Of a DNA stretch of 64,000 nt, positions 1 through 63,635 are shown piece after piece; within the stretch, counting starts at the first letter, position 1; each line of letters starts with the position of its first letter. The notes beneath the pieces were generated by a model that worked only from the letters and a program-made list of their open reading frames with translations, was not told where the DNA came from and ran no database searches. The stretch spans positions 43,780 to 107,779 of the forward strand of contig JAULBX010010214.1 of the NCBI GenBank assembly GCA_032358255.1. The letters are read 5' to 3'. The stretch is from Heterotrichella gracilis. Taxonomy: Eukaryota; Sar; Xanthophyceae; Tribonematales; Xanthonemataceae. Both the position numbers and the translations under genes were made by a program.

Positions 1-3000
1 TGACCCAGCCACTCCTGCAGGCCCCTATGACCCTTACCTGTTGCACCTGTGCTTGTGCACTGTCAGCATGCCGTACCTTGTGTTGTCATCCCTCCCGCCT
101 GCACCATGCACAGGCATCCCCTCCCCAAAAGCCCCATTCTACCTCCCTCATGCCCCGCATACCCTTCCTCCGCAGCCCCCACATCACCTCCCTGCGCGAG
201 CGCATCTGCGTGGACAACACCCCCATCAGCCAGGCGCATTTTGAGGCGCTGGTGGCGGCGCACCAGGACAGCATACGCGCAGTGAACGAGGAGGTTACGG
301 GCAAGCTGTCGCAGTTTGAGATCATGACCGCGCTGGCATACAGGCACTTTGCGGACCAGCAGGTGCGCACATTATGAGCATCAAGGCATACAGGAACGCT
401 TACATGCGCGCGTGTGTCATGCCTGTCATTAGCGTTCCACGCACGCGGAGGTCTGCAAATGCTTGGGTGTTGTGCCTACCAATGTGTTTTTGAGGGTGTT
501 TTCGCACCCACCTTTGGTGCCCCGCCTTGCAGGTTGATGTGGGAGTGATTGAGTGTGGGTTGGGTGGCAGCCGGGACGCCACAAATGTGTTCACCCCAGA
601 CCAGCTCAAACTGGCCATCGTGACAACCATAGGGCTGGAGCACAAGGAAGCCCTAGGTAAGGGTTGGCGGGGCAGTGGGTGCAGCATGGGCCATCAGGAT
701 GCGGATTCAAGCCGATCAATTTCAATTTAGATCCATAGTAGCAAAAGTGGAATAAAATTGAATTGATTGAAATTTAATGGCAGCTACTTACATCCCCGTA
801 TTGTTGGAAGGCGCTTGTGAAGAACCCCAGGGAGTGGAAATAGCCCACACTTGTGCTCGTGGGATGGCTCTGTACTTGCGGCACCAGTGCCTTGCTGTCC
901 AGTGCGTGTGGGGATGATGAGCGGATCTCCGTGCCGCATGCACACATACACACACCTCTGCGTGCACTACACACCCTCCACCCACCGCATGCGCACCGCC
1001 CCCCAGTCCGCCACCCGCTCTCCCATTTTAAACCACACCTCACCGCAGGTGGGGGCATCGACACCATCGCCCTGGCCAAGGCAGGCATCATGAAATCAGG
1101 CCGGCCCGTGGTGCTGGCCCGCCAATCTGAGGCGGTTGCAGATTTCATGCTGCGCCAAAAGGCGTATGACCTGAGCTGCCCCATCGTGGATGCCACCAGT
1201 GAGGTTGCTGCGCACGCCAAGGGGACGCGGGAGTCGGAGGGGAGGTTGTACGAGCTGTGCAAGCTTGACTTCATTGACAAGGCGCATGGCGGGCTGGAGG
1301 GGCCCCAGGTCACCACGTACGGTAAGGGTTTCTGGCTAGGGTTTTGAAACAGGGGTAGTCCATTGGTTTTTACCCCAGTCTCACCGTCTCCAACCGATGG
1401 CATGTCCCCTGTTTGCAAAGTTATCTCGGTTTCCCCTTGTCCGTAACCCCTCTTCTGCAGTTGTCACGCATTTACTGTACTCCCCCTCCCTCCTGCAGAT
1501 GTGAAGCTTCCCCTGGTGGGCATCCACCAGGTTGAGAACGCGGGGGTGGCTGCCGCAGCGGCACTCCAGCTGCAATCCCGGGGATTTGATCGCATCACCC
1601 AGGAGACAATCGTGGCAGGGCTGGAGGCAACGCGCCTGCCGGGCAGGTTCCAGGTGCGTACGGTGTGGAATAAGGGGCAGCACAATAGGAAACCCTTAGG
1701 GATATCCTTCTTTGTCACGCATTTCTGTCCATATTTCCACCTCCCTCGATCCTGTCTCCTCAACCCCTGACATGTCCCCCCGTCCGTAATTATGGTCTCG
1801 TATCCCAAACAAGCATTCTTCCCATCACCAGTCACCATGGCCTCCCCCTCCCCTCACCTGATCATACCCGTGCCACCCCTGATCATCATACCCGCCACCC
1901 CCCCTACCCCACCAAATGTCAATCCCCTCCTTCCTCCCCTGTTCATGCCAGCATATCCCCTTCTCACTCACAACCGACTCACCCTCACCCACCCCCACCC
2001 ACCCCCACCCCCCACCCCCCGCAGACGCACAAGCTCCACGAGGAGGGGCGGGAGGACCCCCACTGGCTGGTGCTGGACGGGGCCCACACACCCCTCTCCG
2101 CCCAGGCACTGGCCACCACCCTGCGCCGCGCCTTCCCCCACCGCCCCCTGGCCCTCATCATCGCCATGGCCAATGACAAGGACCACAAGGGGGTGGTGGA
2201 GGCGCTGCATGGGGTGGGGCCGCAGGTGGTGGTGTTCACCTCGTGCCCCATCGCTGGCAGCACGCACAGGTGGGGGGTGGGGGGGAAACGGGAGGGTTGC
2301 TGGGGAGGGGGAAAGGACATGGGGACAATTGGCTGTGTTTAGAGTGTGGATTCAAGGGTTTAGGGATTGTGTGTTCCCCCGTTGGCTCCTTGCCCAATAG
2401 TCACTGGTGGGGTTACCCTCGTGCCCCTTTTTGCTGGCAGCACGCACAGGTGGGGTGTGGGGGGTGTTTGGCGGGTAGGGGGCATGTGGGTGGGTGTGGG
2501 GGTGTTTTGTTTTGTTACAAAGGGGTACCGTTATGGTTATGGTATATAAAGTGTGCCCTAGGCAGGATGATTCCACCAGCATTGGCCACACGACATGCAC
2601 GCCTGTCCCGCACAGTCACACACAATGAGCCTCCCACACTCTACGCCCTAAACCCAAAACCCTAAACCCCAAACCCTATATCTGCAGGCAAGCCGCCCCA
2701 GGGGTCATCGCAGCGCACTGGCAAGCGGCAGCCATGTCCAAAACCGGACCCGCATCTAGGGTTCGCACAAGGCAGCTCATCCAGGTACTGCAAACCCTAA
2801 ACTTTGACCCCCAAAACCCTAGCCGCTTGCACCCTGTGTACGCCCTGAAATGCAAACCCTTACACCATGTCCAAAACCCTAGAACCCGTGCACCTTGCTG
2901 GCGGCTGCATGAGACACGGCATGTTCACCACACACATACGCACACCATCACCCCACCACCAGCCGCCTCACCCCCACCACACACACACACCTGCGCAGGC

Positions 3001-7800: not shown

Positions 7801-8005
7801 AACGCACCATATCCAGCTGCTTGTAGGTGGTGGCGAAGTGGAGGGGCCCTCCAGCGCCGTTGTCCTGCGTGATGTAGTATGGGTCCACTTCCATGACGTG
7901 CGCGAGGTGTTCCGGGTCGCCCTGCCTCACTGAGGTGTAGAAGACGATGGGCGGGTACTTGGGCTGGGGCGGGTACCGCCCCGTGCCTGTCATGTCGCGC
8001 GGCAT
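4826..8005 (-). CDS. Ankyrin repeat - malonyl-CoA:ACP transacylase fusion
   Basis: Eight exons: 8005-7808, 7717-7592, 7303-7051, 6780-6617, 6449-6224, 6024-5855, 5607-5401 and 5089-4826 (TAG). They total 1608 nt (535 residues) in frame. The start ATG at 8005 sits in GCCAAGATGCC. Residues ~20-110 are ankyrin repeats (DNGAGGPLHFATTY, DDKGFTVLHRAAYL), followed by a conserved-looking block (DWWALYDYGLDAIKKW) and a Lys/Arg/Glu-rich linker. The FabD domain follows: FLFPGQGSQAVGM, the nucleophile elbow GLSLGEYCALAF across an intron, the histidine motif SGAFHTSLM, and the C-terminal ELGPG. FabD moves malonyl from CoA to acyl carrier protein in type II fatty acid synthesis, normally in the plastid, yet no transit peptide is seen before the ankyrin part. 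The junction uses a GC-AG intron (7050-6781). The alternative is two genes, with ankyrin reading on to a stop at 6986 and the transacylase start unseen. Domains are firm; the fusion is likely but unproven. Confidence 0.8.
6781..7050 (-). other. GC-AG intron joining ankyrin and transacylase parts
   Basis: The donor reads CAG|GCAAGT, the classic GC-donor context, and the acceptor is CTGCAG. Splicing keeps frame from YVHPYP into the Lys-rich linker. A TTTAGGG-like tract lies inside, near 6890-6915. Confidence 0.65.
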
Positions 8006-9337: not shown

Positions 9338-12300
9338 ATGCGCATCTTTTTCTCCAGCCTCTTGATACCTCTCGCAGCTGCTGTCCGCTCGCAATTCCCA
9401 ATCGCCCCAGCGCCAGCTGGCACACAAGCCCTAGAAGGGCCTCTCCATAACGCATGGGGTTATCCACAATGGCCAGAATACAACGCAGATGTTCTGCCCC
9501 AGCCAGCCCCATCACTGCAGCACATCCCTGCGCTCAGTCAGGACAAATTAGCCAATGGATCCACACCAGCACCAGCACCGGAGCCAACAGGGGAGGAACA
9601 ATCATTTAACGGGGAAGGGACAATCAATATACCCAATTTGGCTGGTGGGGTGACATACGGTGCTGGACCAGCACCTGCAGCAGGCCCCAGCATCCCAGCA
9701 GATGGTGTGCAGCCGCCCAACGTGACTTACTCAGGTAGGATCATAGTGGATTGCGCAATGCCATTTTTTCCGATAACTCCTCGTATTAAATTAATGCGCC
9801 TGTTAAAGCCTTTGATTGGGTCCCTCACGCAACCTTTACGCTTTGCCTATGGTGTCAACTTATTTGGCTTGTTTCTGTGGTGTGTGTGTAATGTGAATTC
9901 ATGGGTGCAGGCTACGTTGAGGTTGCCTCTCGGCCGGGCTCCCAGCTGTTTTACGTGTACTATGAGGCCAGCGAGGTTCAGCCCAACGATGACAAACCCA
10001 TCATCATGTGGGTCTCGGTACGTAGCTAAGTCCAAAGCCACCTGTTAGTGGCAGCTGGTATCACGGATGTATACTGCACATCCCATTCCTATTAGGGACA
10101 ATGTATCGTCTTCATTTATCTGTTTCATTGTGTCCCGCATGTGTGGCTCACCATGATATGATATGTAGTGAAGTGGGTTCTTGCTGAAGATTTTTCCTTG
10201 CAAAGCCAATCAGTACAGTACAGATGTTGAAGGTCACGACATACCATGCGTGACTGCAGGGTGGTCCAGGATGCGCCGCCATGTTCAGCAGCTTGTACAT
10301 GCTGGGTCCTCAGTGGGTGGCGCCTGATGGGCAGACGCTCATGGGCAACCCTGGCACATGGGCGGGCACAATGGGGCTGCTCATGTTTGACCAGCCGGTT
10401 GGGACGGGGTACAGCATACCAGGTGCGTGCGTGTATGCATGCTCACATGATATATTATAACTGAGACCAGCACCAACCAATACCTGGCTAGCCGTGCTTA
10501 CTTTGGATGGCATTCAATGTTCTCACGTATTCCTACTGTAAGGATTCCTCAGCCATCCCCTCCTCTCTTCCTTCCGCTGTTTCCAGCGCAACTGGTAGTG
10601 CTCAAGAATTGGCCGCAAAAAGCTTCCCCGGGGAGTTTACCTATACATATTTCCACCTTGGCAGGTTCCTTTGGCATCCCCACCACCGAGGCTGAGTCCA
10701 CCATCGACCACTACCTGGCCATGCTGGCTGTGTTTGACCTCCACCCGCAGCTGCAGCAGCGGCCGCTGGTGATTGCCGGGGAGAGCTACGCAGGGAAGTA
10801 CATCCCGCAGCTAGGTAGGGGTTTTGGGGTTTGGGGATACAATTCAGGACGCAGGGTTTAGGGTTTAGGGTTTTTCTCCACCGGCAGCTGCAGCAGCGGC
10901 CGCTGGTGATTGCCGGGGAGAGTTACGCAGGGAAGTACATCTCGCAGCTAGGTAGGGATTTTGGGATTTGGGGATACAATTCAGTGCTCGGAATGGGCTC
11001 AGGGTTTAGGGTTACAGGTTTACCTACACGCGCAGCTGCGGCAGCGGCCACTGGTGATATTATCCGATTAGAAATTTAGCGGGGAGAGCTACGCAGGGAG
11101 GTACATCCCGCAGCTAGGTAAGGCATGCAGGGATGTACTGCACCACCAAGTTCAACACGCTTACGTTGCACAAAGTTAGATGGTGTAAAGTATAGAACAG
11201 ATGTCACCACTTTCTAATTCAAGCAGAGTTAAGTAATGGATATACATATTCACTTGTGGCGCAATACAACCATTCCTCCATACATCTGCATGCTTTTACC
11301 GAAAACACCTTCAAACCATATACAACTGCTTTACCCTGATGAAGGGTCCAGCCTAATGAAAGTTTGAAAGCAGCCCTTGGCACGGTGATCTGCAGGTCAC
11401 CTCGTCCTGGAGCTGATGCTCGCCAACAACCCCTCCTCGCCCCTGGCCACCAGCTTGGCAAACTCCACAGCCGCGCCCTACCCCTCCTTTTCACCGTCAC
11501 CCCCCCCCACCTCCTGGTCTCCCCTCCAACAACCGCTTCCCGGCATTTACGTGTCTGGGATAAAGGCAACACCTCCGCCCCAGCCACCGCAGCAGACAAG
11601 GGGTGCTGTGGTGAACCCCATAGGCAGTCCCACCAGGCGCATCAACAGTACCAGCGGTGTTGATCCGGGAGGGTCGTTGGGCATTGGGTGGGCGCAAGGC
11701 AGGTTGAGTGGGGCCAATGGCGCAACATCGCAGGTATGCACATCAGCGTGGGTAGTCACATGATGTGGTACGCCAATACAACTTCATGAAGCATTATTGC
11801 TGCTTCGTGTATCACCCATTTATTCAATCCTGGCTCTGGTGGATGGGCTGCCTTAGCAAGCTCACATTCATTGATCACAACCACCCATCAGGGCCTGCTT
11901 GAACCACTGAAGGAATGAAAGGACATTTTATACACAGTGTCTACCATGACGACCAGGAATGTAAAGGTGTTGACGGGTCCACACAGAGCTAAGATTCTTG
12001 TGCTGACAGGTGTTCTCTCCCACCCCTGCGGGCACATCTGCTCTGCAGCACCTCACCTGGCAACTGGATCTGCCCAGCTGGGCCCCTCCCCTCCTGCGCC
12101 CACCAAATTTTCAATTGGCGGGGCTCATCATTGGCAGCAGCTATGTCGATCCCTACACCCAGGTAAGTTTAGGGCTGAAGCTAGGGTTTTTGGTAAGGGT
12201 TCAGGGCTTGGGGTATAACTTGGACCTGGGTAGAGAATTACGGTTGGAGTTGGGATTTGCAGGGTAGGGTTTACGGCGATAATTCTTGTGTTGTATTGTA

Positions 12301-15300
12301 AAACATCATTTTGGGACAGCTTTGATGGTCAACAATTCAAGGACACCACCCGTTACGTTTAAATATGGCGGGCGGGCAATCAATTGCGTTTTGGTTCAAG
12401 CTTGACGGTGGCAATGTTGGTGTGGGTACCCATACCCATACCACTGCCGCAGTGCGAGGTATACCCACGCCAGTACTGCAACGGGCAAGGAAGTTTGAAC
12501 CAAAACGCAAATGATTTGTGTGCCGTCAATGGTGGAAACACGTCTGAACTGCCAAAATGCAGAAACACATTTGCTGGATGAAACGCAAACGTCACCTTCG
12601 AGGTTTGGCTTGGGCAGGGTTTTGTGGACCTTAAATTCAACCCTGCACAAGCACATGCCAGCACCTGCAAATCGATTCTAGGAGCACTGTCAGAAGCTGC
12701 ATTCCTTGATGGACCACCATGTATATTGGGCGATCATCCAGGGTTATGGCCAGGCACCCCTCTGGCCCAGGTGAAGTGGCATATGATCATGAGGGCTGCA
12801 GCGCCTCTGTGAATGCTTACGGAGGGATTGTGAAAGCTTGCATGTCTTCACTGCGCCAGGCATCAGACAGGTGAATGTAGCTCTTCTGTGCTTTCAACTG
12901 CATTCGACACTGTCAGTATGCAGGCTCACCATTCACCTATGCAATGCCTGGCGTAGTGAAGGCATGCACGCTTTCACTTTCACTACCTGAGAGTCACAGG
13001 GAGTCTGCAGCCCTCATGATCATATGCCACTGCGCATTGTGTCTTGCTGCATTGCACAGCACGAATGATGACATAGGCTGCTTCCTCTTGGTGACTCCTC
13101 GAGATGTACTCCCTGAGGGATCACAGTGAGGCTGCAGCCCTTGCAATCATGCAAGCTGTGGGCTGCAGTAGGACACAGTGTTTGCAGCTTGCCAGTTTTG
13201 GCGACAAATTAGCAATTTAGCAAAGTTTAGGCCACTTTAACACATCCCCGTTCCCTCCTTACCCTTCTTTGTGTTGCAGAGCCATTCCTGCTGGCTCTTT
13301 CAGGCAATGTACCTTCCGCGGATGAGTCCACTGCTGGACAACACAAGGCAGTACAGTTTACTAAAATTGAATAGTAAAGGGGATCTGTCACTTGAAGTGT
13401 TCGCTCGAGGCTTCGCTAGCTGCTAATGGACCTTTATTCTAGTCCAGTACATGCGCCAGATTTCTGCCCAATCTAGGCCCATAAGGTGGCAATGTTCTAG
13501 ATCACTGCTCAGAAGCTGCCAACAGCAGGGCTTAAAACCCTAGGGCTTCTACCAATATATTCTACCTATAGGCAGTAAAAAGTCACCCTTCCCGCGCGCA
13601 TGACACCACCATTCCCCACATGGCCTCAAGTTTTGGCCTGTGGACCCCATTCAGACCCAAGTTGTGGCCACACTTGAGGCCACGATTGCCCAGCTGCTAC
13701 CATCAGAAATTTGATGGTAGCAGATGTGCTCGTCTGATAAGTGTTCTCTGAATAAAAGAATTTGCGCCAAGCTGATATTTCATGAGAGCCCCTTTTCTGC
13801 ACAATGCCATCCTCCCTGCACGCAGGACACCACGATCTCCCGCATCGCCTCCAGTTTTGGCCTGCTGGACCCCGCTCAGACCCAAATTGTTGCCACACTT
13901 GAGACCACCATCGCCCAGCTGCTGGTGGCAGGCCAGGATGCAGCCGCCTTCTCGCTGCGCAACCAGATGTACATGTATATGCGCAACCAGGCGGGGGTGG
14001 TCACGCTGCTTGATGTGCGGCGCACCTCGCCGTATGATGGGGACGGGGCGGTCCAGGGGTACATGAACCGCAGGGAGGTGCAGGTGGGTTGTGAGGTGCT
14101 GCGTGGGTGTGGGTGGGTTAAGCAGTGCAGGGGTACATCAGAGAGATGGTGGGGGGGGTGGATGATGGGGCGGTGCAGGGTACATGCACAGAGGGAGGGG
14201 TGGTGCAGGGAGGTGTGGATGGGTGGATCGTGTCTGCGTTGAACGCTAGAAGACTTACTTTGTTTTCTAATAGCTACACTCTTGATACCCTATTGGTGCC
14301 CTACTGCAGGATGCGCTGGGAGTGTCTGCCCAGTACAGCACCAGTATAATTTACCACTTTCTCTTGTATTGGTTACCCTATTAAAACCCTGGTGAACCCT
14401 ACTGCAGGACGCGCTGGGAGTGTCTGCCCAATTCAATGCCAGCGGCAGCCCCGTCCAGGACTGCTCCTCACAGGTGGTGGCCACACTTACTGCTGACACC
14501 ATGAGGAGCACAAAGGGGCTGGTGGCGGACCTGGTCAGGGCAATGCCAGTGATGCTGTATCAAGGTGAGAAATTGAAAATATTAGGTCAAAATAAATAGT
14601 AAAATAATGAATCTTAAATTGAACGTCACTGGCACCGCTGACACCATGAGCTTTATATGTTGTTTCAGGGCAGATGGACCTCCAGCTTGGTGTTGCCAGC
14701 AATGAGAAGTGGGTGGACAGCATGGGGTGGGAGGGGCTGGATGCCTTCCTAGCGTCCCCCAGAAACATTTGGACCCTGGATGCGGGCACCCTCCAGAGCG
14801 CCCTCATTCCGCCGCCATACCCAATCTTGGTGGGTGCCAGTTTTTTTAAACACCTTAATTGTCATAGTTGTGAGGGGCACAATGATGGTATTAACATTAG
14901 TTACACAAACGCCCAGCCTGGAGGAGCCAATGCCGAGAAATTGAGACCGTGCTGCCACATCTGCGTGTCATTTGCGTTGTGAGTCCTAGAGTGTGGATCC
15001 ATGCCTGGCGTCCTTTGCAATTGCATTTGGAATTTGCACTCGTGTGTATAGTCAAAGGTGCATTTGCTGCTTGCCATTGTGCAATGCCATTTACCATCCG
15101 TCTGTGATTTAAATATGCAACTGCTTTTTGTCCCCTGCAGGTTTGGAACCCAGGTCAGGCATATGATGCACCTGTGGTAGGCACTTGGAGGGAGGCAGGC
15201 AACCTGGCACAGGTAGTCCGCTAGTTGAGATGAAATGAGAATCGTGTCAATATTGTAATAATTAAAATGAGGTAAAAATATTGGAGTATCAAGCTTGTTT

Positions 15301-24049: not shown

Positions 24050-24062
24050 TTTCCCATATAAA
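24050..24062 (+). promoter_or_regulatory. Possible TATA box
   Basis: CCCATATAAACC lies about 150 bases upstream of the ATG at 24203. It follows a small repeat of TTTTTGGGCGAC (about 23996-24025) in a GC-rich divergent promoter shared with VPS60. Confidence 0.4.
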
Positions 24063-24693: not shown

Positions 24694-24699
24694 GGGGGC

Positions 24700-34933: not shown

Positions 34934-34980
34934 CATGGTATAATATTTATTGATTTATAACTGTAAATCATTATGCATTG

Positions 34981-49531: not shown

Positions 49532-52500
49532 ATGGCAAAGTTCCACACCATTGTTGTGGGACTTGGAGCCATGGGCAGTGCAGCGCTGTTCCACCTCGCC
49601 AAACGGGGCCTGACGGTGAGCACACGGTCAAGGGGGCCGGGACGTCTGGTATTGAATTTCTAAGGTTCCACGTCAAGCTGCGTGTGTTGCATGCATATGT
49701 CATGTGTGTGTTGTAATGGGTGTCAGTACAAACACGGGGGAAAACATAGCAGCCACCCCCTCCCGTGCTGTGGAGCTGTACAGTGCAATCCTATGCAGAC
49801 TGCACGGCCAACTGAGTTAAATGAGGCACGCTGAATGACTTCCGCTTGGCCCCCGTCTCCCCTCCCCTCCCCCCCACAAGCAGCCCCACATGTCCCACAC
49901 CCCACCTCACAACCCTCCCAGGTTCTGGGCCTGGAGGCGCAGCCCGTCACCCCCCATGCCCACGGCTCCTCCCACGGTCTGTCACGCATCATCCGCCTGG
50001 CCTACTTGGAGGGGGCAGGCTATGTGCCCCTGCTGCGCTCTGCCTATGCACTGTGGAGGGAGCTGGAGGAGCGATCGGGCCAGGTGGGTGGTGGCGGCCG
50101 GTAGGGAGTCGGGTCAGGTCAATGGCAGTGGTGGGCGGTGGGAGACGGGGAGTTGTGTAGAGAGCCAGAGGAGTAATATGGCTAGGTGGGCGGGTGGGGG
50201 GCGGTGGATGGCCATGCCCTGCCTGGCATTCAGTTGGCCCACTGAGGGGCACGATTGTGGTAACACCACCCCAACATCCACTGTGCACATGCAACCCATG
50301 TGGCTGCTCCTACCCCCCTCCCCTATTCAACCAACCTCCGACAATCTCCTCCACCCTAAGCTCGCGATCTCACCCACCACCACCCTCTGCCCACCACATC
50401 TCAATCCCCACCAACCTCCACCGCCTGTTGCCATCCCACAACCCCACCCATGGCCCAGCGCATCAACACCCATTACACCCACCACCGGTGGACAATCATC
50501 GGGTCCATTCATACCATACCACCACACTGCGCACCCCCACACCAACACCCACCACACCCCGCGTAGAGCCTGCTGCACATCACCGGCAACCTAGACATTT
50601 CCCCTGCTGCGGGGCCCTCAGCCAAGCCGGTGTTTGAAGGCAGCCTGGCAGCAGTGAAGGAACATGGCCTGAGCCACCAGGTGCTGACTGGGGAAGAAGT
50701 GAATGCGCGCTTCCCAGGGTACAGCCTGCCATCCGATTACAGGGTGAGTTGATAGAAAGGCGGCGATTCATGGGACGGGGATTGGTGTTTGCATCGGCGG
50801 GAGGATGGCGGTTGTAGTGGATGGGGATCCTGTGGATTGGGACAGCCTGGCGGTGGTGAGGGCACATGACCTGACCCACCAGGTGCCGGCTTGAGACGAC
50901 GTGCATGCGGGTTTCCAGGGGTACAGCCTGCCACGCGATTACAGGGTGGGTGCCACTTGGTGGTATGATAGGGGCTGGACCTTCTAGGTGTTCATTCCAC
51001 AGCTGCGTTGCCAGGCTGTGTGATCAGCGCACCATCTTTGCCCTTGAGACCTGCATTCCATCACACAAATCTACAAGGTAATACTGTTCACCCGTGCGAC
51101 ATTAACTCATAAAATGCTGTAATTTTGAACATTTTTATTTCATTCCAGGCTGTGTTCCAAGACCAGGGCGGCATCTTGGCACCCGAGCGCTGCATAGCCG
51201 CTCACATTGGGGCCGCAAGGGAGGAGGGCGCGCAGGTGCATAAGGGGGAGGCGGTGGTGCGGTGGCGGGTGCTGAATTCAGGGGATGTGGAAGTGATCAC
51301 TGACAAGGGGAGGTATCTTGCCGACAGGCTGATACTCACCACTGGGGCATGGGTGGCTGATTTGCTACCAGGTCTGAAGGTGAGGGGCAAGCAGCATACA
51401 ACCTATGAGTGCTGTACACACGTGAGCCGCAACCAAGTCCTAGTGCCCACAAACGTGCATTACGCCTGCTCGCTGCAGGAAAATCCATGCTCCATGTGCC
51501 CCCAACCCTGTAAACATACCATGTTTATTCTATCCGCAGAAACATGCAATTGCTTTCACAGCAAACAAGAGCACTTGCTGGCACAGAAAATGCACTTTAA
51601 CCATATATCACTGCAACAAAATTCAGTTGCCTTTTCCCATTCTAACAGTGGGTATTATCCATTATGTTAAACATCCAAATTATTCATATGGAATTAATTG
51701 GATCTATAAAGCCTGCCACTTGCTGCCTGCTGCAGAGCGTTTCCACTGTGGAGCGCCAGGTGGTTGGCTGGTTTGAAACCTCGGCACCTCACAGCTTCAC
51801 CCCCGACAACTGCCCAGTCAGCATCCTGGAGGACGAGACAGGGTTCTACTACACATTCCCCGCCTTTGACCACACGGGGTTCAAGATTGGAAAGTACAAC
51901 CATCTAAAGGAGGTGGTGGAGCACCCCGATGGTCTCGCCAGGGGGGTGACGGGGGAGGATGAAGAGGTGAGTGGGAACGAAACATGAGGTATTCCAGGGA
52001 GACTCGAATAGGACTATTCTAGTCTACCTGGTTTACTTTTGTGCTAGTTTTGGAAGCAAAGAAAAGTTGAGGGTCTGCTCCTGCCTGTGCTGGCATTGTA
52101 TGTCTGTTTAGGGCTTTGGGTGTGTGCCTGCCTGTGCAGGTCCTGGGTGTTTGTACAGGGTTTCAGTTGCGCCCTCTTGTGCAGACCTTGCATGTGTGTT
52201 TCAGGTTTTAGGATTTGTGCCCTCCTCTGCAGGCCCTGCGTGTGGCTGTGCAACCTTACTTCCCACAGCGAATGCCGCTTCATAGACGCTGCGATTATGG
52301 TCCAGAGAGTAGGGTTTGCAATATAGGGTTAAGGGTTTGTGCACTCCCATGCAGGCCCTGCGCGTGGCTGTGCGGCGCTACTTCCCTGCAGCCAATGGCC
52401 GCCTCCTGGATGCCGCTGTGTGCATGTTCACCAACACCCGGGATGAGGCCTTCATCCTGGACCTGCACCCACGACACCCGCAGGTGGGCCAGTAAGCCTT

Positions 52501-52872
52501 CATACTACAGAAACGTAAATTACTTTCATTTTCAATTTTAAAATCGACTCAATCGCATTTGTTAATTATTTTATGTGCTAATTTGTTCACTTATGGTGTG
52601 CAAGTTGTGGTGTGCAGCGCGCGCTCTGGCATTGGCTTCAAGGTTCCTGATTTTACGTATCAGTTTATTCTTTTTGTTTATTTTAATAGTAAAATCTTGT
52701 TACGCAGGTGGTGGTGTGCAGCGCGTGCTCCGGCCACGGCTTCAAGTTCAGCAGCGTGATTGGGCAGGTGCTCGCTGACCTGGCGCAAAAGGGGGACACG
52801 ACACACGACGTACGCATGCACAGGCTGAGGCGGGACAGGCCGGGGTTTGCACAGGCAATGGATGCGCTGTAG
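49532..52872 (+). CDS. Sarcosine oxidase / N-methyl amino acid oxidase-like flavoenzyme
   Basis: FAD enzyme of the MSOX/PIPOX/SolA group, which oxidises N-methyl amino acids or pipecolate and releases H2O2. Exons: 49532-49615, 49922-50083, 50567-50743, 51149-51379, 51736-51966, 52355-52483 and 52708-52872 (TAG); 1179 nt, 392 residues, matching the usual ~390. Motifs: N-terminal Rossmann HTIVVGLGAMGSAALFHLAK, the family signature SSHGLSRIIRLAY, GGILAPERCIAAHIGAA, ILTTGAWVADLLPGL, and CMFTNTRDEAFILDLHP, whose Cys matches the covalent flavin site of monomeric sarcosine oxidase. The C-terminus has ACSGHGFKFSSVIGQVLADL. No SKL-type peroxisome signal is present (it ends in MDAL), unlike animal PIPOX. 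The substrate is not predictable. Several of its exons have echo copies, including one beyond the stop. High confidence in family. Confidence 0.93.
50843..50950 (+). repeat. Exon echo of oxidase exon 50567-50743, with donor
   Basis: GACAGCCTGGCGGTGGTGAG through GATTACAGGGTGGGTG repeats the last ~108 bases of the exon plus donor. The copy keeps GGTACAGCCTGCCA but has gained a stop in frame (TGA in GGCTTGAGACG), so it is a decayed copy about 207 bases downstream. Confidence 0.8.
52093..52320 (+). repeat. Serial echoes of the start of oxidase exon 52355
   Basis: Segments of the form TGTGCAGGYCCTGNGTGTG recur about every 65-110 bases (near 52132, 52182 and 52227). The last keeps the most: CAGGCCCTGCGTGTGGCTGT then a TACTTCCC block, against CAGGCCCTGCGCGTGGCTGT in the exon. 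Each copy includes an acceptor-like CAG. Confidence 0.7.
52600..52650 (+). repeat. Exon echo before oxidase exon 52708
   Basis: TGGTGTGCAGCGCGCGCTCT through GGCTTCAAG repeats the first ~45 bases of the last exon (GTGGTGTGCAGCGCGTGCTC), about 105 bases upstream. Confidence 0.8.
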
Positions 52873-54481: not shown

Positions 54482-56673
54482 ATGGCCAGTGCAAGCAAGC
54501 AAGGGGAGCTGACTGTGAAGGGGGCGGGGGTGGTGAAGGTGGACTGCGACGTAGCACAGGTACCAACCTCAACACCTAGCTGCCTCAACACCTGGTGCAC
54601 CTAGTCGTGCTGGCCTCTGGGCTGTGCTTAAGCACCTAGGCTGTAGCAACCTGGCACGTTTGCTTTGTGACCAGCCCATGATCCGGCACACACCAGCCTT
54701 CCACGTGTCTGCACAGCAACGCTCATGCCCACCCATCCCTCACCCCCCCCACTCACAATTGGGTGAAAAGCACGTACAATTTTACGCACGTTTGAACTAA
54801 ACCTCCCCGCCCTACCCTTCGCCCCCTGTGTTTCCAGATAAGCGCCGCCATCTCAGTGACCCGCACCTCGGTGTCTACCGCCGCAGCTGTAGCAGCAGAG
54901 GCTTCGGCAGCGGTGTTTGGGACCCTGCGCAGCGTGAGTACACCGCATACATCGCCGGGCTCCTTGCTGGGGTTTTAGGGTTTGGAATTGGGGTTAGGAC
55001 CGCGTTGTGACAACCAGTGGCTAAATCATACTCTGACCTAAATCATACTCTGCAGCTGGGTAGCCTGGATGACAAGCACCTGACCACCTCCTGCGTCTGC
55101 ATCATGACATCACCACAGGAGCTGAACCGAATTAGGGTTTAAGATTCATTTTCAGTCCCAATCCAAACCCTTGAGCCTGCAGCTGAATTTCCAGGACCTT
55201 GCACAACTCCCAAACCCTACATGATCAACCATAAACCCTAATCCCTACACTATCCACCTTGCAGCTGGATGGATTGGACGAAAAAGACCTCACCACCTCC
55301 AGCATCTCCATCATGCCATCGCACAGGATCCTGCTTTTAGGGTTTGAGGTTTAAGGTATAGGGTCAGTTATCACTCCAAACCCTTGACCTGGAATACGAG
55401 GACGTCTACACAAGATCAAAAGCCTACATGATCAACCCTAAACCCTGATCCTAAAACCTAAATCATGAACCCTAAACCCTAAACCTCCACCTTGCAGCTG
55501 GATGGGTTGGACGAAAAGGACCTCACCACCTCCAGCATCTCCATCATGCCATCGCACAAGTATGACCAAACCACCGGCAAGTCAAGCGTGGATGGCTACA
55601 CTGTGAGCAACCAGCTGAGTGCGGTGGTGCGGGAGGCAAGCAGCAAGAAGGTTGGCGAGGTGATAGACGCGCTTATTGAGGCGGGGCAGGACCACCTACA
55701 GATTCACAACGTACAGGTAAGGCGCAAAACAGGGGAGGGAGGTCATGCAGTGCGAATGTAGGGTTTAGGGTTTAGGGTACACTGTGAGTAACCAGCTGCG
55801 TGCGGTGGTGCGGGATGCAAGCAGCAAGAAGGTGGGCGAGGTGTGTGCGGTGAAGCGCAAGGGGTTTTCTCAGTGCAGCCCTAGTCCCTGAACTCTCCAC
55901 CCAGCACGCACCTGTCACTGACCCCAGCATCCCCTCGTTGCTGATGTTGGCCAGCACAAAACCCTACACCCTAACCCCGCACTGTGCGCCGCAGTTTGAG
56001 GTTGCCCCCGAGGTGTATGCAGAGAAGCGCAAGGAGGCGCAGGTGCTGGCGGTGGCCAGCGCAAGAGAGTCGGCAGATCTGTATGCACAGGTGGGAAAGG
56101 TGGTAAGGGTGTGTTCAAGAGTTTCAGGGTCTACGGTTAGGGAGTCAGCAGATCTGTTTGCACATGTGGAAAAGGTGGTAGGGGTGTGTTTTAGGGTTTT
56201 AGGGTGGTGACTGGAGCACGTAGAGAGTTGGCAGACCTGTACATGAAGGGAATCCAACTTACTACTGAGACTGTTCGTCTATTCAACTTGTACTGGTGTC
56301 CCACTGGATTTTCAGCAAGGGAAACAACCACAGCGCATATTAATCATGCATCTGGGTAGGAGTCTGAGTACTCCTAGTATTTATGATGCATATATAATGG
56401 GGTCCTTTTCACCCCGTCAAGTCCCGGGGAATAACCCTTGCAGATGTCTCAATCCGTTATTTCCAATCCCCGCAGGCGCTTGGGGTAACCATTGGGGATG
56501 TGCTGGAGCTGCGGGAGGCAGACATTGGAGGCACCCCCCAGCCGGAGATGCGCATGATGAAGTTCGGAGGTCCCCAGGCCGCAGCCTCGCACATGCCCAT
56601 GCCTGTGTCCATGGGGGCTTCGGATGTGTCTACTGCAGTGGTGGTCACCTATGCGCTCAAGAACCCAGTCTAG
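54482..56673 (+). CDS. SIMPL-domain (DUF541) protein
   Basis: Exons 54482-54559, 54838-54933, 55498-55716, 55995-56090 and 56476-56673 (TAG); 687 nt, 228 residues. The pattern follows the SIMPL/YggE family: start ELTVKGAGVVKVDCDVAQIS (usual 'GxGxVxxxPDxA'), an Ala-rich helix, LDEKDLTTSSISIMPSHKYD (usual 'GIxxxDIxTxxxxvxPxYxY'), GYTVSNQLSAVVREASS, VGEVIDALIEAGQDHLQIHN, ARESADLYAQALGVTIGDVL and VSTAVVVTYAL at the end. In bacteria SIMPL proteins are secreted or periplasmic and linked to oxidative stress; the human relative SIMPL/IRAK1BP1 is in NF-kB signalling. No signal peptide is seen, so the algal protein is probably cytosolic. The molecular function is unknown. Exon 55498-55716 has several extra partial copies. 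Confidence 0.88.
55056..55330 (+). repeat. Two upstream echoes of SIMPL exon 55498
   Basis: About 65 bases of exon start plus acceptor (GCAGCTGGGTAGCCTGGATG at 55053; GCAGCTGGATGGATTGGACG at 55262) precede the real exon (GCAGCTGGATGGGTTGGACG). The second copy is nearly identical over CCTCACCACCTCCAGCATCT. The spacers are rich in CCCTAAA/TTTAGGG (55130-55145, 55225-55240, 55440-55490). Confidence 0.85.
55756..55862 (+). repeat. Downstream echo of the same SIMPL exon
   Basis: After GTAGGGTTTAGGGTTTAGGG, the middle of the exon (TACACTGTGAGTAACCAGCT to GTGGGCGAGGTG) is repeated with few changes relative to about 55597-55662. Two short echoes of the next exon follow near 56130-56165 (GAGTCAGCAGATCTGT) and 56220-56245. 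Confidence 0.8.
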
Positions 56674-57935
56674 AGGGCTGCATGCAGCTTGGGGAGGGGT
56701 GGGATCAGGCATCATTGGGTTGGTGCCACGGATGGAGCCTATGCGCTGGCGTTAATATGCGCTTGGTGATGTCCCATGGGGGCTGCCGGTGTGTCCACTG
56801 CAGTGATGGTCACATATATGCGCTGCTGAATCTGGGACATACCAAAGTACATACAGCTTTGGGAGCATGGTGGTGCTCAGCCGGTGGGACTGCTAGTACC
56901 GTACTGTTTGGATCAATCCAAGTTATGTCATTACATTTATATATCAAAATCTTGCTTATTTTGCCAAAATTTGAGAAGCTCACCATGCCTGTCAGAGGCT
57001 AGCTTGTGAGACCTGTTCACTCACTCTGGGATCTTAACCTTAGTTGACTCATGCATGGTCGTGGACCTAATTTAATGTTTCACTCGCTGTAACATTTACC
57101 ACAAGGTACACTATCTACATAAAATTGTATGCCGCATGCGCCATACCAGGTCCTGTCATGTATGGCGCCATGTCCTGCACAGGACAGCTTCAAGTTTCTG
57201 CACTCGCTGACCTTAAAATGTGAAGGAATGCACCTCGGAAACACTAACCCAATGTTCTGAGAACCCCATCACAGGGGTTCCTGACCTGAGGCCAAATCCA
57301 GAGAAAATTGCTCATGAGCGACTTCACTAGGATAGTGAGTGATTGCTGTGAGTACATGCGCATGAGAATGTTCCTGTGGGAGACACCACTATACCAGGGA
57401 AAACCAATGATAAGGTGCAAAATCAGCCATATGCAGCTAACCAAAGAAAGAAAGAAACAAAACACGGCAGCACACCACAACCAGCAAGGTTGAAAAACAC
57501 AGACAAGCCGGGCAGCAACCAGCAGCTAATTAACCATCATGATGGTATGCTGTCAGAATAGGCGTACTACAAAAGTCATAGAAGAGCTGCGTACTACCCG
57601 GAAGTACTGCCACAGTCGCAACTTCAGAGCACCCTACTTCCCAGCTATGATCTGTTGGCGGCTGGCCAGCCACCCCCTTGCTGCGCCACTGCCTGAGCCT
57701 ACACAAGGCTGTTGCCATCACAACATGCAACGCTGCTCCGCCCCCTGTGCCGTGTGCACCATTGGTGCATCCCAATTTCTACTCCCGAACAGGTTCTGCA
57801 CCACACTTGTCCACCCAGCGCGCCTCCGCTGCCCGTACCATGTGGCGCATGAACGTCCACCCACCCACACCCACCCTGTTGCCGCCCCAGATGTTGGCGG
57901 CACTGCGACCAGCTGCCCGCCACTGCACCCGCAGG
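56674..57935. other. Intergenic with a tail echo of the SIMPL gene
   Basis: Around 56768-56830, TCCCATGGGGGCTGCCGGTG through ATATGCGCTGCTGAA repeats the SIMPL 3' end (TCCATGGGGGCTTCGGATG at about 56608) with added bases. GTCCTGCACAGGAC near 57172 is a small palindrome. No gene was seen up to the kinase-like 3' end. Confidence 0.6.
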
Positions 57936-59990
57936 CTAGGGTGCCTGGTCAGCGCTGTCAGCCAGGCTCGCTGCCTGCTCCAGGATGTCGCCATGCCTCT
58001 TGCAGATGCTTGCAAACTCCCCTGCCAGGCTGACACCCTCCTCCTTGCTTGGCATAGCCCTGTAGCACCTGCACTGCCTGGCGCCCTCGGGCTGCCAGAA
58101 CAGCGCTGCAAGCTCCTTCACCAGCGGGCGCAGCTGCTCATGGCACAGCCCCAGCTGCTCTGAATCACAAGGAAATAGAAACGTTTAGTGCAGATGAATG
58201 ATGGACACGGGGAATGAAATGGAAGACATAGGATGAAAGAAATGTAATGTAGATGAATAAAGTCGTAAAGGAAACAAATATTCATAAATATGTAAAGAAA
58301 ATGGACAATAATTGTAACATTTGACCACGCCCCTCATCTCCACATACGAGGGCTCTGTTGAGGAACAGATGCTGCTCATGCTGCGCACCGAACATGACCT
58401 CCTGCTGCATGGTCTTGTACTTGACGGCCTGCATGGCGGACCAGGGCCTGTAGTTGCGCCACAGCAGGTAATCATCTGAGGCCACATCCATCAGGCAGTA
58501 AAGCGCGGCCTCCACCTCAGTGGCGAGGCTGAGTGGCTCTTGGAATTCCTCCTTATCCTCCCTGGCGAGGGCAGCCCAGCATGGATTGGCGACGCTGCCT
58601 GCCGGTGCGTGGACATCCATAAATACTTAATACATAATAACCACCAATCACGGTATGCAAGAAATAAATGAGCGGGGAAGGCAAACAAAGCAAATTTACA
58701 TAGGTACACGGATATATCCGTGCCTGCCCCCAAATGATGTCCATTATTTAATTAACCATAATCAACAATAAATGCGATTGTGTCAGCATGCTCCTCATGT
58801 TGAGACAGGTGCGAGAGGGCGCCACCCTCCGAGCCTGCCCATTCCCACACCTTAAATCCCAAACCCTAACCCCTAACCCCTAAGCAGTCCATACCTGCCG
58901 GCGCGTGGAAGTCGATCAGGACCAGCTGGCCCTCGTGCTGCATCAGATTGCCGGCTTCAGGGCCCCGTGCAGCATCCCCAGCTCTGACATGGCACCCAGG
59001 GTCTCCGCCAGCTGGCCAAACACGCGCGCAATGGTTGCGGCGCCCTGCTCCTCGACGTTCAGGTGGCGGGCCAGGGGCTCCATCACCAGAAAGGGCTCCC
59101 TGGTCTCAGGCAGGAAGCCGCAGGCCGTGCACTTGACCACATAGGGCAGGTGCTCCAGCTCCCGCAGCCTGTCGGCCTGCAGGGTTTAGGGTTTAGGGTT
59201 TAGGGTAGATGCAAACCCTAAATAGGTCGTGCATTTGACCACATGGGGCAGGTGCTCCAGCTGGCGCAGCCTGTCGGCCTGCAGGGCACACCACAGGCTC
59301 ACGTGGCGTGGTAGCAGCCAGTGTATATGTCATATATGCATGGATATTATAGGTGTTATTAACATTGTTACAGTACAAGCTTACATATCAGTTATATTTA
59401 CAAGTAGTAATAGCCCATGTCACAACACGCCCACAACCTTGGTGAAAGCATGGTTCACGCTACAGTCCACGCTGCCGCTACCAACACAGTGCCACTAGGC
59501 TAGGATGAATGCATGCCCATGGGATGACGACCCTGGTTCGGCACCAACGCTAAACCCTAAACCCGTCAACACACACCCTACACTCATTGCCAACCCAGGC
59601 CCAAATGGTCCTCACCTCCTCAAAAGCTGTGGGGGAGATCTTGAGGGCCACGGGGCAGCTGGCCAGCCCTTTGCCCTCCCGCAGGGCAGAGTACACCATG
59701 TTGTCTCTGCCCGCATAGCGGCTTCCTCCCTCCCCAGCTGCAGACCCACAGACCGGGGTCACTGGGGATGGCTGCCTGGGCTTCCTGTCCCCACTCTGTT
59801 TCCACACAGCCATACGGGGGCCCCTCCGCATGCTCAGTGCTGGCGCGGGCTTTGACGCAAAGCTGTGCTGCTGAGTGCTGGTGCTGAAAGGTGACGTTGC
59901 AGCCCTGCCATTGAAGGCTGCCCTGCATACTGGCCTGGAGGAGGACAGGGCAGCTGGCAGCAGCTGGGCACTCTGCTTGATGCTATTCAT
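57936..59990 (-). CDS. Plastid-targeted kinase-like protein, catalytic Asp missing
   Basis: Exons 59990-59616, 59176-58895, 58598-58348 and 58154-57936 (TAG). The N-terminus is a Ser/Ala/Arg-rich plastid-type transit peptide (MNSIKQSAQLLPAALSSSR). A reduced protein-kinase domain follows: PVALKISPTAFEEADRLREL holds the VALK lysine and start of helix C; PFLVMEPLA is the hinge; the catalytic loop reads MLHGALKP where HRDLKP is expected; and VLIDFHAPA sits where DFG is expected. With the HRD aspartate replaced by Ala, it is probably a pseudokinase. The C-terminal region is helical and unrecognised. The four exons sum to one base less than a multiple of three. The missing base maps to the catalytic loop near 58951, where the frame must shift from HGALKP to NLMQHEGQLVL. 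This is a sequence error or a real frameshift. The family call is moderate. Confidence 0.6.
58592..58618 (-). repeat. Short exon-end echo before exon 58598
   Basis: On the minus strand, GATGTCCACGCACCGGCAG just upstream of exon 58598-58348 echoes the end of the previous exon (GACTTCCACGCGCCGGCAG), 16 of 19 bases identical. Confidence 0.5.
59177..59290 (-). repeat. Exon echo with telomere-repeat spacer in the kinase-like gene
   Basis: The acceptor and first ~55 bases of exon 59176-58895 recur at 59226-59281 (plus strand: GGCAGGTGCTCCAGCT then GCAGCCTGTCGGCCTGCAGG in both). The spacer is TTTAGGG repeated three times plus an inverted CCCTAAA unit. Confidence 0.8.
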
Positions 59991-60897: not shown

Positions 60898-63635
60898 TCA
60901 CCTATGCTGCTTTGCTTGCGCGCGTATCGCCTTGCACGCCCCCTTGTGCTGCGGCCAGTGCAGGTCCTGGCAGGCGGCGCTGCAGTAGCGGGTGGTGCCA
61001 CAGGGGCACCCCCGCAGCTTGATGGCCTTGCCCTCGCCTTTGCTCCCCTCCACACCGCACTGGCTGCACTGCCTGGCCTTTTTGGCCTTGACCGGGGGTG
61101 TGCTGGGACGCTGGGAGGCGGTGGCGCTTGCACTTGCGCCGCCATTGTCTCCACCACTGGCGCCGCTCCTGTCCCCACCGCTGCCAGCAACACCATCCTC
61201 ACCACTCACACCGCCCCCGTCCCCACTGCTGGCAGCACCAACTCCGCAAGGCTCCCCACCGCTGACGCCTCCCCCGCCCCCACCACCAGACCCTCCCCAC
61301 TCCCAGCCACCGCTTGCATCCCCCCTAGCACCTCCTTCCCCCCCTGGGGGCTGGGGTTGGACCCCCCCTGGTGTGGCCTCAGAAGCTGCGGTGCCAATGT
61401 GCTCTACGGCGGTGGCGAGCTTGCAGCGGATGATCCCCGCTTGTAGCCGACTCACCTGCAGGGCAGCACCTTCAGGGTTTAGGGTTCAAGGCTGACCTGC
61501 GGCAGCTTTAGGGTTTAGGGCTAACGACGGACTGACCAACAACAGCAGGGGCAGGAGCAATAGGGTTTAGGGTTTTAGGGTTTCACGGTAGCAGCAGGAT
61601 CCTCTGGGCCAGCCCACATGGAATGCTTCCAGTCAGTGGCACACATGGGTGTAAGACTGGGGTAGGTCTAGTGCAACCAGCGCATACACTCTCACTCCCA
61701 ACCAACCCCTACTTTTGCCTTTACTGAAATAAAAGGCTGGACAGTGTGCATCAAATAATCCTACCACTACCACTACCACTGCCACTACCACTGCCTTCAC
61801 ACTACCAGCACCACCGTCTTAAAACACCCATTATTCACCACAGTACACTACATTGCAGCATCAGGACATTCGCACTCCACACGTTGCCCAAAACCCTAAA
61901 CCCTGATCCATTACTTGCGCAGTACCTTGTCTTTGAGGTCGTACGACACTTGGAACATGCCATTCTCGGGTGACCATTTGACGGTGTTGGGGTGTGCGCT
62001 CCTCACAATCCGGATGCTTGGCTTCCAGGTACTGCGCTCGCCTGACCCGGCATATCCCACCACATTGACAACAGTCAAAGCATGATTGGAGCATGATCAG
62101 AACATGACCTTGACTTGTTCCAGCGTTCACCGTAGAATCAATTACAGCGTTCAGCGTAGAATATGCTTGCAACCATGGTCCTCAGAGTCACAGATTAAAG
62201 CTTGATCAGAATTTCCATGAACTTTGCGACGGGATAAAATGGGTAGCACGAAAGTGCGGTAAGCGGCACGACTGGTTTGCCACCATCTGCCACACTGGAA
62301 AAGTGTCAGTTAAGCCTTGGCTCTAGGACTGGGGTGAGGCATACCCAAACATGCTAACCTGGCTTCGAAGCTGGAAAGCCAAATACTTACTTACAGAGCA
62401 TGATCAAGGCATCCCGTCCACCGCCACCTCACCTTGAGCATGGAATGCTTGACCCACTCCATGCAGAAGTGGCCACAGGCAAAGCACAGCCCCCTGGGCG
62501 TTGTTGGTACTCAACTGTTGCAGCAGGTACCTGCAGAAGAATATAGAGACATAAGGTATATGACAAAATTCTGGTTGTAAATTCCTCGCACAGGAAATGT
62601 ATATATATAAGGAAAGTTGGAAGAAAAAGTATACATGTTCTCCCTGGGCAGCAGCATGTACCTGCGGAAAGAAATCAGATACATGAGGTCAGTGATACGC
62701 TTTTGTGTGATTAGGAGAAGTAGGACCTTGGACGTGAATGATGGAATAATTCACCATTGCACTCCCTTGGACATAGCAGCACGCAGGTACTTATGAAAAG
62801 CTTTACAGCGTTTGAATTAGATTCAACGGGGTAATTGGTGAACACCTTTCTGTGTATGTTCTGGGTTCCAACAGCAGCAGATACATTTACCAATTTACAT
62901 CAAAGCCGACTTATGGTAGTGGGAATACCCAGTGCATGGCATTGATGTTTGGTTTGATTGTTACACAAACGCCACCCTTACCTGTATATCCCCTCCATGT
63001 ATTGCTTGTCCATGTACACCTGGCTCAAAACACTGGGATCCGCATCCGCTGCCCATGCCACAGGCATGATGGAACACAGCGCCCGTGCTGCTTGGAAGCC
63101 CAGTCGGGCATGTGACAGCAGGCGCACCAGCTGGTGGTGGTACTTGCTTTGCACCACTGCTGCTAGCAGGGATGCACGATGCGCCTGCAGGCAGGCAAGC
63201 CTAGAATTAGAATTAGGGTGTTAGGGTTTATAGGGCTGCACTTGCAGGCATCCACATTGGGTAGGCTGCTACTTGATCGATGTAAGTTTTCACCCACACC
63301 CAGCAGAGGGTCATACCTCATGCAACACTGCGTAACCGCAATAATACCGTACCTTGACAAGAGGGTACCTGGGGCGGAACTGCATTAATACCGTTTCTCA
63401 TAAGAGGATACCTAGGGCGGAACTGCAATTCTACCGTACCTTCACAAGGTAGAGAGGGACTACAATTATACCGTACCTTCACAAGAGGGAAGGGCGCAGC
63501 CACCTGCTCCAATGTCTCATCAGAGGCCAGGACAAAGGTCCCCAGATAGTTTTCTCCCAGTTCTAGAGTTTGTGCAGAGCAGTCCCCTAGCCCTATTCCA
63601 GACAGCAGCTCCGTGATTGGCGTCATCACCAGGCT
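60898..63635 (-). CDS. MYND zinc-finger protein, gene model incomplete
   Basis: The clear exons are 63635-63477, 63184-62982, 62530-62433, 62031-61926 and about 61457-60898. The last carries a C-terminal MYND finger: CSQCGVEG, LRGCPCGTTRYCSAACQDLH and WPQHKGACK give the Cys-Cys-Cys-Cys-Cys-Cys-His-Cys pattern. MYND fingers bind proline-rich protein motifs. Before it is a Gly/Ser/Ala-rich linker. The exon at 62530 reads CFACGHFCMEWVKHSMLK and runs in frame into YLEAKHPDCEERTPQHRQM, but joining it to the exon before needs a one-base shift at a GGGG run near 62492. The last junction also needs an alternative acceptor. Upstream exons read ELLSGIGLGDCSAQTLELGE and LVRLLSHARLGFQAARALCS, armadillo-like helices at best. 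The 5' end lies right of 63635 or is interrupted by the LINE. Function is unknown. Confidence 0.7.
61466..61585 (+). repeat. Interstitial telomere-like tract
   Basis: Several AGGGTTTAGGGTT units are spread over this part of the MYND-gene intron. A (CCACTA)n/(CCACTG)n microsatellite follows at about 61759-61795. Confidence 0.7.
63345..63490 (-). repeat. Tandem copies of an exon end and donor in the MYND gene
   Basis: On the plus strand, TACCGTACCTTCACAAG (exon end plus donor, reversed) recurs with variants at about 63345, 63393, 63432 and 63469, spaced roughly 40-50 bases. Only the copy at 63471 ends the coding exon; the others are alternative donors. The acceptor side (CTCTGCAACACATTGAGAGG) is also duplicated once, at 63634-63690. 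Confidence 0.7.

Follow-up and report, generated by a model that had tools for sequence, protein, structure and literature searches.

Plant filler DNA and patch-mediated tandem duplications are local duplications, with templated filler, that arise after paired nicks or breaks; we know of no telomeric filler and no splice-border preference in them. In mammals, interstitial telomeric sequences are attributed to telomerase insertion at breaks, accompanied by target duplication in 6 of 130 rodent and 4 of 25 primate loci; one head-to-head case is reported in the horse, and the sections of these papers available to us place no human locus in an exon (PMC2246262, PMC7215372). New introns in Daphnia show direct repeats, within the intron and at the exon ends, that were explained by staggered-break repair and proposed to lengthen introns (PMC4202315), and tandem genomic duplication of AGGT segments has been described as an origin of introns (PMC3443670). 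Plant “telo boxes”, i.e., telomere-repeat units scattered in genes and enriched in 5′ untranslated regions (UTRs) and 5′ flanks, have been explained by a model of spread through telomerase and recombination (PMC3022908). Here, we describe exon echoes: partial copies of exon ends that lie in the adjacent intron or just past the gene, often separated from the original by telomere-like tracts. They occur in a 64-kb stretch of one genome (Heterotrichella gracilis, contig JAULBX010010214.1, positions 43,780 to 107,779; hereafter, the window), to which all counts refer and in which the genes were curated by hand.

The exon-end copies are real, and two ways of finding them agree. An ungapped finder, run per offset (20–700 nt), detected 49 repeat pairs scoring at least 18 in the window and none in each of three block-shuffled controls, while a blastn tiling yielded 32 pairs scoring at least 20 versus none in five shuffles. 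Once merged, the 49 pairs give 35 local direct-repeat loci: 19 border-spanning, four intron-only, five exon-interior, one at a gene end, two exon-only (both in coding repeats, of low complexity by eye) and four intergenic. The curated list of echoes comprises 27 copies, grouped by hand into 24 loci (Table 1); from it, the weak exon/intron pairs 10461/10692 and 55837/56009 and the weak blastn pairs 51011/51145 and 62520/62651 were left out. Alignments were curated for 26 copies, the locus 15945–16419 at an assembly gap standing outside this set; they are 30 to 144 columns long.

An earlier note on this DNA had named 21 coordinates of exon-end copies, and 20 of them are accounted for by pairs scoring at least 18, with 29876 and 55756 lying up to 3 nt outside; the remaining one, 28435, is marginal, with an ungapped score of 17 (which one pair reached in one of the three shuffles) and 74% gapped identity. 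The range from near identical to decayed, described in the same note, is borne out by identities to the exon from 93% down to 68% in the curated alignments. Its statement that the copies usually carry a splice site holds for the 23 out of 26 alignments that run over the splice border into the intron, some by a few bases only, but not for the copy of an exon interior (55594–55662, copied at 55775–55843) nor for those of two gene 3′ ends (52784–52879 and 56593–56708), which have none. The claim that almost every gene is affected went too far. In the curated set (16 gene models, 85 introns, 170 splice borders), echoes are present in nine models, and no exon echo was seen in the ankyrin-MCAT, Snf7, 24.2–24.9 kb, methyltransferase-like, radial-spoke, KH and 46-kb models.

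Telomere-like units abound in the window and are gathered in the introns. We counted 390 exact rotations of TTTAGGG/CCCTAAA, whereas none of 19 control necklaces of equal composition exceeded 86, and there are 23 two-unit telomeric matches (up to one mismatch) where 0.01 is expected; near-perfect units at internal sites, far above chance, are what is looked for in telomerase-inserted interstitial sequence. Heptamer density is 12.3/kb in introns, 0.1/kb in exons and 3.1/kb outside the gene models (UTRs not mapped). Defining an echo intron as one that overlaps at least one of the 35 loci, we find 23.8 heptamers/kb in the 24 echo introns versus 3.6/kb in the other 61, and 36.8/kb in the spacers between copies (roll test, P = 0.012). 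An exact heptamer rotation is present in the spacer for 15 of the 27 copies and at 12 of the 24 loci, in keeping with the “about half” of the earlier note. The enrichment at tracts and at splice borders that the note had suggested looking for was found within the window for both: exon-internal breakpoints lie at most 15 nt from a tract in 10 of 27 echoes (background: 7.3% of intron points, 12.8% in echo introns), and a copy extends over a curated splice border at 19 of the 35 loci, versus 10.7 ± 2.4 in 2000 random rotations (maximum 18).

The outward orientation of the tracts in echo introns is a new result. Sense-strand TTTAGGG-type heptamers gather behind donors (91, 46, 16, 10 and 8 by successive fifths of the intron) and CCCTAAA-type heptamers before acceptors (24, 3, 22, 17 and 96), so that on the donor and acceptor sides alike the G-rich strand leaves the exon. 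Counted as tracts, echo introns hold 23 of the G type in the 5′ half versus five in the 3′ half, and four versus 23 of the C type (P = 6 × 10⁻⁷); one tract on an intron midline was scored two ways, giving 46 or 45 outward out of 55. Tracts in other introns show no polarity (G type, 7 versus 4; C type, 8 versus 2; P = 0.64), and the heterogeneity between the two groups is significant (P = 0.0016). By intron, 17 tract-bearing introns with a repeat locus are outward and two inward (P = 0.0007), one of the 17 (61456–61925) being an echo intron only by virtue of a tract-rich pair, whereas the 16 tract-bearing introns without a repeat locus comprise seven outward, eight inward and one tie. By copy, the tracts of donor-side echoes are mostly of the G type (7:1, the exon-interior copy counted in) and those of acceptor echoes mostly of the C type (6:1; P = 0.01). 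We also observed an intron in folC (2785–2998) with four CCCTAAA-type tracts, all in the donor half, which has no repeat locus and reverses the polarity of echo introns.

Plain G-runs are polarised too. Over the 73 curated introns of at least 140 nt, they are strongly concentrated towards both splice sites on the strand that leaves the exon, and this includes the 49 introns without a repeat locus, in which GGG occurs at 36.7/kb outward versus 6.6/kb inward at donors and at 35.2/kb versus 4.6/kb at acceptors.

We searched the flanks of the spacers for a second copy of the spacer (cut-off z > 4, our own choice; three of the 27 spacers, under 20 nt, were left out). None was found for 19 of the 24 tested, while five have one. 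The prevailing arrangement, direct repeats bracketing a unique insert, is that of staggered-break repair, and it is unlike plain tandem duplication, given the 19 spacers without a second copy. Two spacers are head-to-head: 59185–59223 and SIMPL 55326–55497, the latter in an array whose spacer recurs. Together with the junction of tract and exon interior at 55757–55843, they look like telomerase-extended ends that were then joined or re-templated.

No coding constraint is visible in the echoes, which decay as non-coding DNA does. Mismatches between echo and exon affect 55 of 506, 52 of 508 and 89 of 505 sites at codon positions 1, 2 and 3, respectively (rates of 0.109 and 0.102 at the first two), and 20 of the 22 indels in the exon parts break the frame. 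The non-exon match counts of this analysis went unused because of self-overlap in short-period arrays, by which the codon-position counts are unaffected. These figures suggest that the copy decays freely, by about 10%, and that the real exon accepts silent changes only, at about 7% of third positions. Copying from spliced mRNA is ruled out by the 23 out of 26 alignments that enter intron sequence; the source must have been DNA or unspliced RNA.

We consider it probable, though far from assured, that the echoes are local segmental duplications left where breaks close to splice sites were repaired, through a long stagger or by re-templating, while telomerase added repeats to the 3′ end pointing out of the exon. 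What is seen is a border segment, mostly running from exon interior through splice site to intron, that is present twice around a spacer usually lacking a detectable second copy. Such a segment would be duplicated if a break had widely staggered ends whose overhangs were both filled in, or if a 3′ end re-invaded the exon it came from. Telomerase would lengthen the exon-leaving 3′ end, which lies in the G-run-rich strand at both intron ends, and the extended end would then be joined or re-templated. The copy would thereby land in the intron and decay neutrally while the original splice site stays in use; the intron would lengthen and gain spare splice-like sites. G-runs can promote R-loops and breaks, and telomerase primes on G-rich 3′ ends. 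Since the outward strand is rich in G-runs, position and orientation can be tied together in one step: a break near a splice site would presumably expose a G-rich 3′ end as a substrate for telomerase.

Several observations weigh against such an origin. The spacers of 12 out of 24 loci are devoid of an exact telomeric heptamer, which implies that telomerase is not needed for an echo, and tracts also occur in the 16 introns without a repeat locus. Tract polarity is the opposite at two loci (30530 and 52355); moreover, the association of tract type with donor or acceptor is inflated by multi-copy arrays and, counted by locus, amounts to only 5:1 versus 5:1, which we judge not significant. The spacer test is strong for young pairs only, since decay may hide second copies in old ones, and the young pair 55594/55775 (93%) is itself among the five whose spacer matches a flank. 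The arrays at 31130, at SIMPL 55021–55558 and at the assembly gap look like ordinary tandem duplications. Counting pairs instead of loci weakens the border excess (23 of 49 versus 13.5 ± 3.2, maximum 26, P = 0.0035). Finally, both telomerase activity and the arrival of tract and copy in the same event are presumed, and the evidence consists of 64 kb of one genome, without the ancestral (empty) allele. The more specific proposal that splice borders are recurrent break sites, where the outward G-rich strands are cut, primed by telomerase and rejoined with a border duplication of about 30–140 bp, we entertain only tentatively, as it is on balance doubtful.

The sequence of events could be the reverse, with fragile or slippery intron tracts (G-quadruplex, fork stalling) being there first and ordinary template-switch tandem duplications ending in them. 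Echo introns are indeed richer in heptamers even outside spacers and copies (13.3 versus 3.6 per kb), at 31130 and in SIMPL the arrays repeat the tract along with the exon, and short microhomologies (TTTGAG, ACCC) can be seen by eye at some junctions; these points lend some weight to an explanation that we nevertheless find unlikely, in view of the 19 spacers of which no further copy was detected beyond the pair (although in old pairs one could be lost to decay), the carboxypeptidase array, with tracts after copies 1 and 2 and none seen after copy 3, and the absence of tract polarity in other introns. Alternatively, the tracts could act as splicing signals (G-runs after donors, C-rich branch-like sequences before acceptors), or their polarity could result from selection against exonisation of the echo, a pair of explanations that appears improbable. 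The polarity of G-runs in both intron groups would suit a signal, but a general splicing role predicts tract polarity in introns without a repeat locus as well, and the even split among these, small as their number is, led us to reject that role. For the orientation, and for that only, selection against splicing the echo in is still a serious alternative: a CCCTAAA tract offers neither GT nor AG and a TTTAGGG tract no long pyrimidine run, and the observed orientations are those that least favour exonisation. As for the echoes being functional alternative exons, many do keep a splice-site-like border; the rates of mismatch at first and second codon positions, which fit neutral decay, and the frame-breaking indels make this very improbable, and we rejected coding alternative exons on these grounds. 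Least credible of all is an assembly artefact. The copies at 15945–16419 flank the only 100-N gap of the window, by which an assembly error is possible at that place, but the 26 aligned copies elsewhere differ from the exon by 7–32%, many of them with indels, as mis-assembly of one locus would not yield. Repeats or heterozygosity may have broken the assembly at the gap. Introners were rejected as well: blastn within the window (E-value of 10⁻³) linked far-apart places by just two matches, each in stretches that contain telomeric units.

It is also conceivable that duplications fall anywhere, those in exons being purged and those in introns fading faster, so that survivors at borders are partly to be expected without any targeting. 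Some such filter must act, as exon-only loci are just two out of 35 and the exonic copy is constrained, and ascertainment and tolerance must account for some of the border enrichment. When segments of the observed lengths were placed at random, 35.1% were wholly intronic and 13.4% crossed one border, which gives a border share of 28%. The binomial test takes the 19 border-spanning and four intron-only loci and leaves aside the remaining 12 of the 35. At two intron-only loci (19402, 61463), what matches is largely tract against tract, and counting them works against border preference (one variant leaves them out). The observed share, 19 out of 23, differs from 28% with P = 7 × 10⁻⁸. In a simulation with the exon copy made neutral, 0.73 of the pairs stay detectable at the estimated decay; the excess has P = 0.004 with the detectability of intron-only loci set at one third and 0.02 at one quarter, or 0.009 and 0.04, respectively, without the gap and MYND loci (17 of 21). 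The simulation thus does not abolish the enrichment, and an absence of targeting seems unlikely, if still a serious contender. A real border preference beyond tolerance is likely, not secured, large deletions lying outside the model, and true targeting of splice borders is unproven.

Compared with the known systems, the window combines features that are each familiar. The earlier note knew of no named mechanism, which was too strong, as both staggered-break repair and telomerase insertion at breaks have been described (PMC4202315, PMC2246262, PMC7215372). Its own suggestion of break repair with telomerase-added repeats and local re-copying is supported in part, by the outward tracts of echo introns, the unique spacers and the two head-to-head spacers; the reading as a whole is not established by them. 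As in primate, rodent and horse interstitial telomeric sequences, short telomeric repeats would mark break sites, sometimes with a target duplication, but in the available sections of the horse/human study insertion is judged random with respect to introns and target duplication concerns a minority, whereas here the tracts accompany long splice-border duplications and are oriented outward. The exon-end repeats of Daphnia, in what is available of that work, measure 4–12 bp and mark new introns; none of our 26 alignments is that short, and the introns concerned here need not be new. The word stem “telomer” is absent from the main text of the Daphnia paper (PMC4202315). AGGT tandem duplication likewise makes extra splice sites by local duplication; as far as the available account goes, however, it makes the intron itself, while an echo is an extra copy within an existing intron, the modelled splice sites being elsewhere. 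At the 21 splice-border loci, those left when the exon-interior copy and the two gene-3′-end copies are taken from the 24 curated loci, the modelled intron encloses the echo, which stands apart from the used sites, and no intron ends at the duplicated AG of an exon copy. Telo boxes, in the parts of the report at hand, are not enriched in introns and not tied to duplications; the window heptamers are chiefly intronic, denser there than outside the gene models (UTRs not mapped), and no enrichment of the telo-box kind in 5′ flanks or 5′ UTRs was apparent. In the literature surveyed, partly as excerpts and with most subscription papers outside it, we found no description of exon-border echoes with telomeric spacers. 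To that extent, the combination of long splice-border duplication and outward telomeric filler appears to be new.

Table 1. Echo copies and associated features in the window (positions from the first base of the window; identity in % over aligned columns where given).
Feature	Position	Strand	Source	Identity	Spacer and remarks
folC donor echo	2405..2464	+	2227-2284 (exon end and donor 2269/2270)	87% over 60	TTTAGGG-type heptamers in spacer
carboxypeptidase donor echo 2	10870..11010	+	10730-10862 (donor 10814/10815)	85% over 144	AGGGTTTAGGGTTTAGGG tract directly 5′
carboxypeptidase donor echo 3	11018..11123	+		76% over 107	18 extra bases inserted; TTTAGGG tract before, none seen after
carboxypeptidase acceptor echo	13579..13698	+	13803-13923	83% over 121	no telomeric heptamer
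carboxypeptidase acceptor echo	14275..14344	+	14374-14442	79% over 72	two CCCTAAA-type heptamers
last carboxypeptidase exon, start triplicated	15945..16419	+		89-98%	split by 100-N gap 16235-16334 (only gap of the window)
nocturnin acceptor echo	19337..19405	+	19451-19520	87% over 70	followed by CCCTAAA-like spacer 19406-19450
nocturnin donor echo	19705..19787	+	19626-19698	77% over 83	G-type heptamers between donor and echo
acceptor echo	26132..26168	-	exon 25721-26083	81% over 37	CCCTAAA spacer; breakpoint 0 nt from tract
donor echo, decayed, marginal	28415..28489	-	exon 28553-28760	74% with gaps	best ungapped score 17
donor echo	29879..29908	-	exon 30002-30237	90% over 30	no heptamer
donor echo	30412..30478	-	exon 30530-30632	84% over 67	CCCTAAA tract, against usual polarity
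two donor echoes	30880..31071	-	exon 31130-31260	90% and 74%	TTTAGGG tracts between copies
NOP53 donor echo	41465..41540	+		68-75%	no heptamer
oxidase donor echo	50154..50205	+	exon ending 50083	75% over 52	no heptamer
oxidase donor echo	50843..50951	+	exon ending 50743	81% over 109	no heptamer
oxidase acceptor echo	52203..52292	+	exon 52355	78% over 92	TTTAGGG tract, against usual polarity
oxidase acceptor echo	52600..52646	+	exon 52708	83% over 47	no heptamer
copy of oxidase 3′ end and stop codon	53087..53184	+	52784-52879	78% over 98	downstream of gene
SIMPL acceptor echo 1	55021..55117	+	exon 55498-55716	75% over 102	
SIMPL acceptor echo 2	55208..55325	+	exon 55498-55716	86% over 118	spacer to real exon TTTAGGG...CCCTAAA
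SIMPL exon-interior copy (no splice site)	55757..55843	+	55594-55662	93% over 69	joined to TTTAGGG tract
SIMPL donor echo	56139..56205	+	56064-56130	85% over 67	array
copy of SIMPL 3′ end	56757..56880	+	56593-56708	69% over 127	downstream of gene
kinase-like gene acceptor echo	59224..59286	-	59122-59184	92% over 63	
spacer between both 63-bp kinase-like copies	59185..59223	-			39 bp; head-to-head TTTAGGG...CCCTAAACCCTAAACCCTAAA; no copy in either flank
MYND gene donor	63330..63488	-			about four (3.8) copies of 43-bp unit; no telomeric heptamer

The gene models go back to a small self-trained gene finder with a second-order model; as it merged neighbouring genes and took echoes for exons, the 16 models were curated by hand. 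A fourth-order model was dropped because it overfitted (362 exons). All models passed the splice-dinucleotide and open-frame checks but for one NOP53 donor, later shifted by one base; the positions at which first exons begin and last exons end are approximate. The genes are eukaryotic and intron-rich, with a GC content of 0.615 in exons and 0.499 in introns (window, 0.533). Published values for Coccomyxa are 53% for the genome, 59% for exons and 49% for introns (PMC3446292), and TTTAGGG units are likely ancestral in green algae, according to a preprint (PMC12633428), both sources being available in part. Pfam recognised eight of the ten joined proteins submitted. The best matches of the radial-spoke protein are the flagellar radial spoke proteins 6 and 4 in structure 7jr9 (210 and 204 bits; next kind, 155), which we take to be from Chlamydomonas. 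Judged from this match, the TTTAGGG units and a base composition close to that of Coccomyxa, a green alga would be the likely source.

Relatives of the window were sought by protein pattern, with the radial-spoke protein among genome contigs (55 matches) and with folC among viral contigs (16 matches), and no relative was found. Twenty-two viral contigs with a telomeric pattern, all screened for composition and repeats, were dropped as relatives: the reading frames or predictions of five (L001, L015, L004, L014 and L002) look phage-like, not algal. Among those taken for three CCCTAAA units, L002–L006, L014, L017–L019 and L022 contain about 60–130 telomeric heptamers in 4–14 kb; these telomere-rich contigs are unrelated to the window, and those inspected are phage-like.

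Other features of the window may be mentioned. The minus-strand gene model at 4826–8005, without an exon echo, joins ankyrin-repeat-like sequence to a malonyl-CoA:ACP transacylase domain, and may specify a fusion protein or consist of two merged genes. A tRNA-Thr (AGT) gene lies at 20873–20948 within an intron of the nocturnin-like model, on the same strand. Three near-palindromic inverted repeats (12378–12516, 12775–13031 and 15481–15694; 71–75% self-complementary), all in carboxypeptidase introns, are possibly decayed hairpins or remnants like miniature inverted-repeat transposable elements.

For annotation, the echoes are a warning, as some carry splice sites good enough for a gene finder to have called them exons (e.g., 10894–10951, 31006–31065 and 55265–55348). 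How introns gain sequence, and what role break repair has in it, is an open question on which these 64 kb, with about two dozen events in graded decay, can bear, and the strand-specific mark left by the tracts separates the hypotheses. Should the pattern extend genome-wide, events could be dated, breakpoints mapped against splice sites and the role of telomerase tested genetically in an alga. If splice borders are indeed recurrent break sites of the kind proposed, telomerase-assisted repair would keep driving, in a directional manner, the growth of introns and the supply of spare splice sites.

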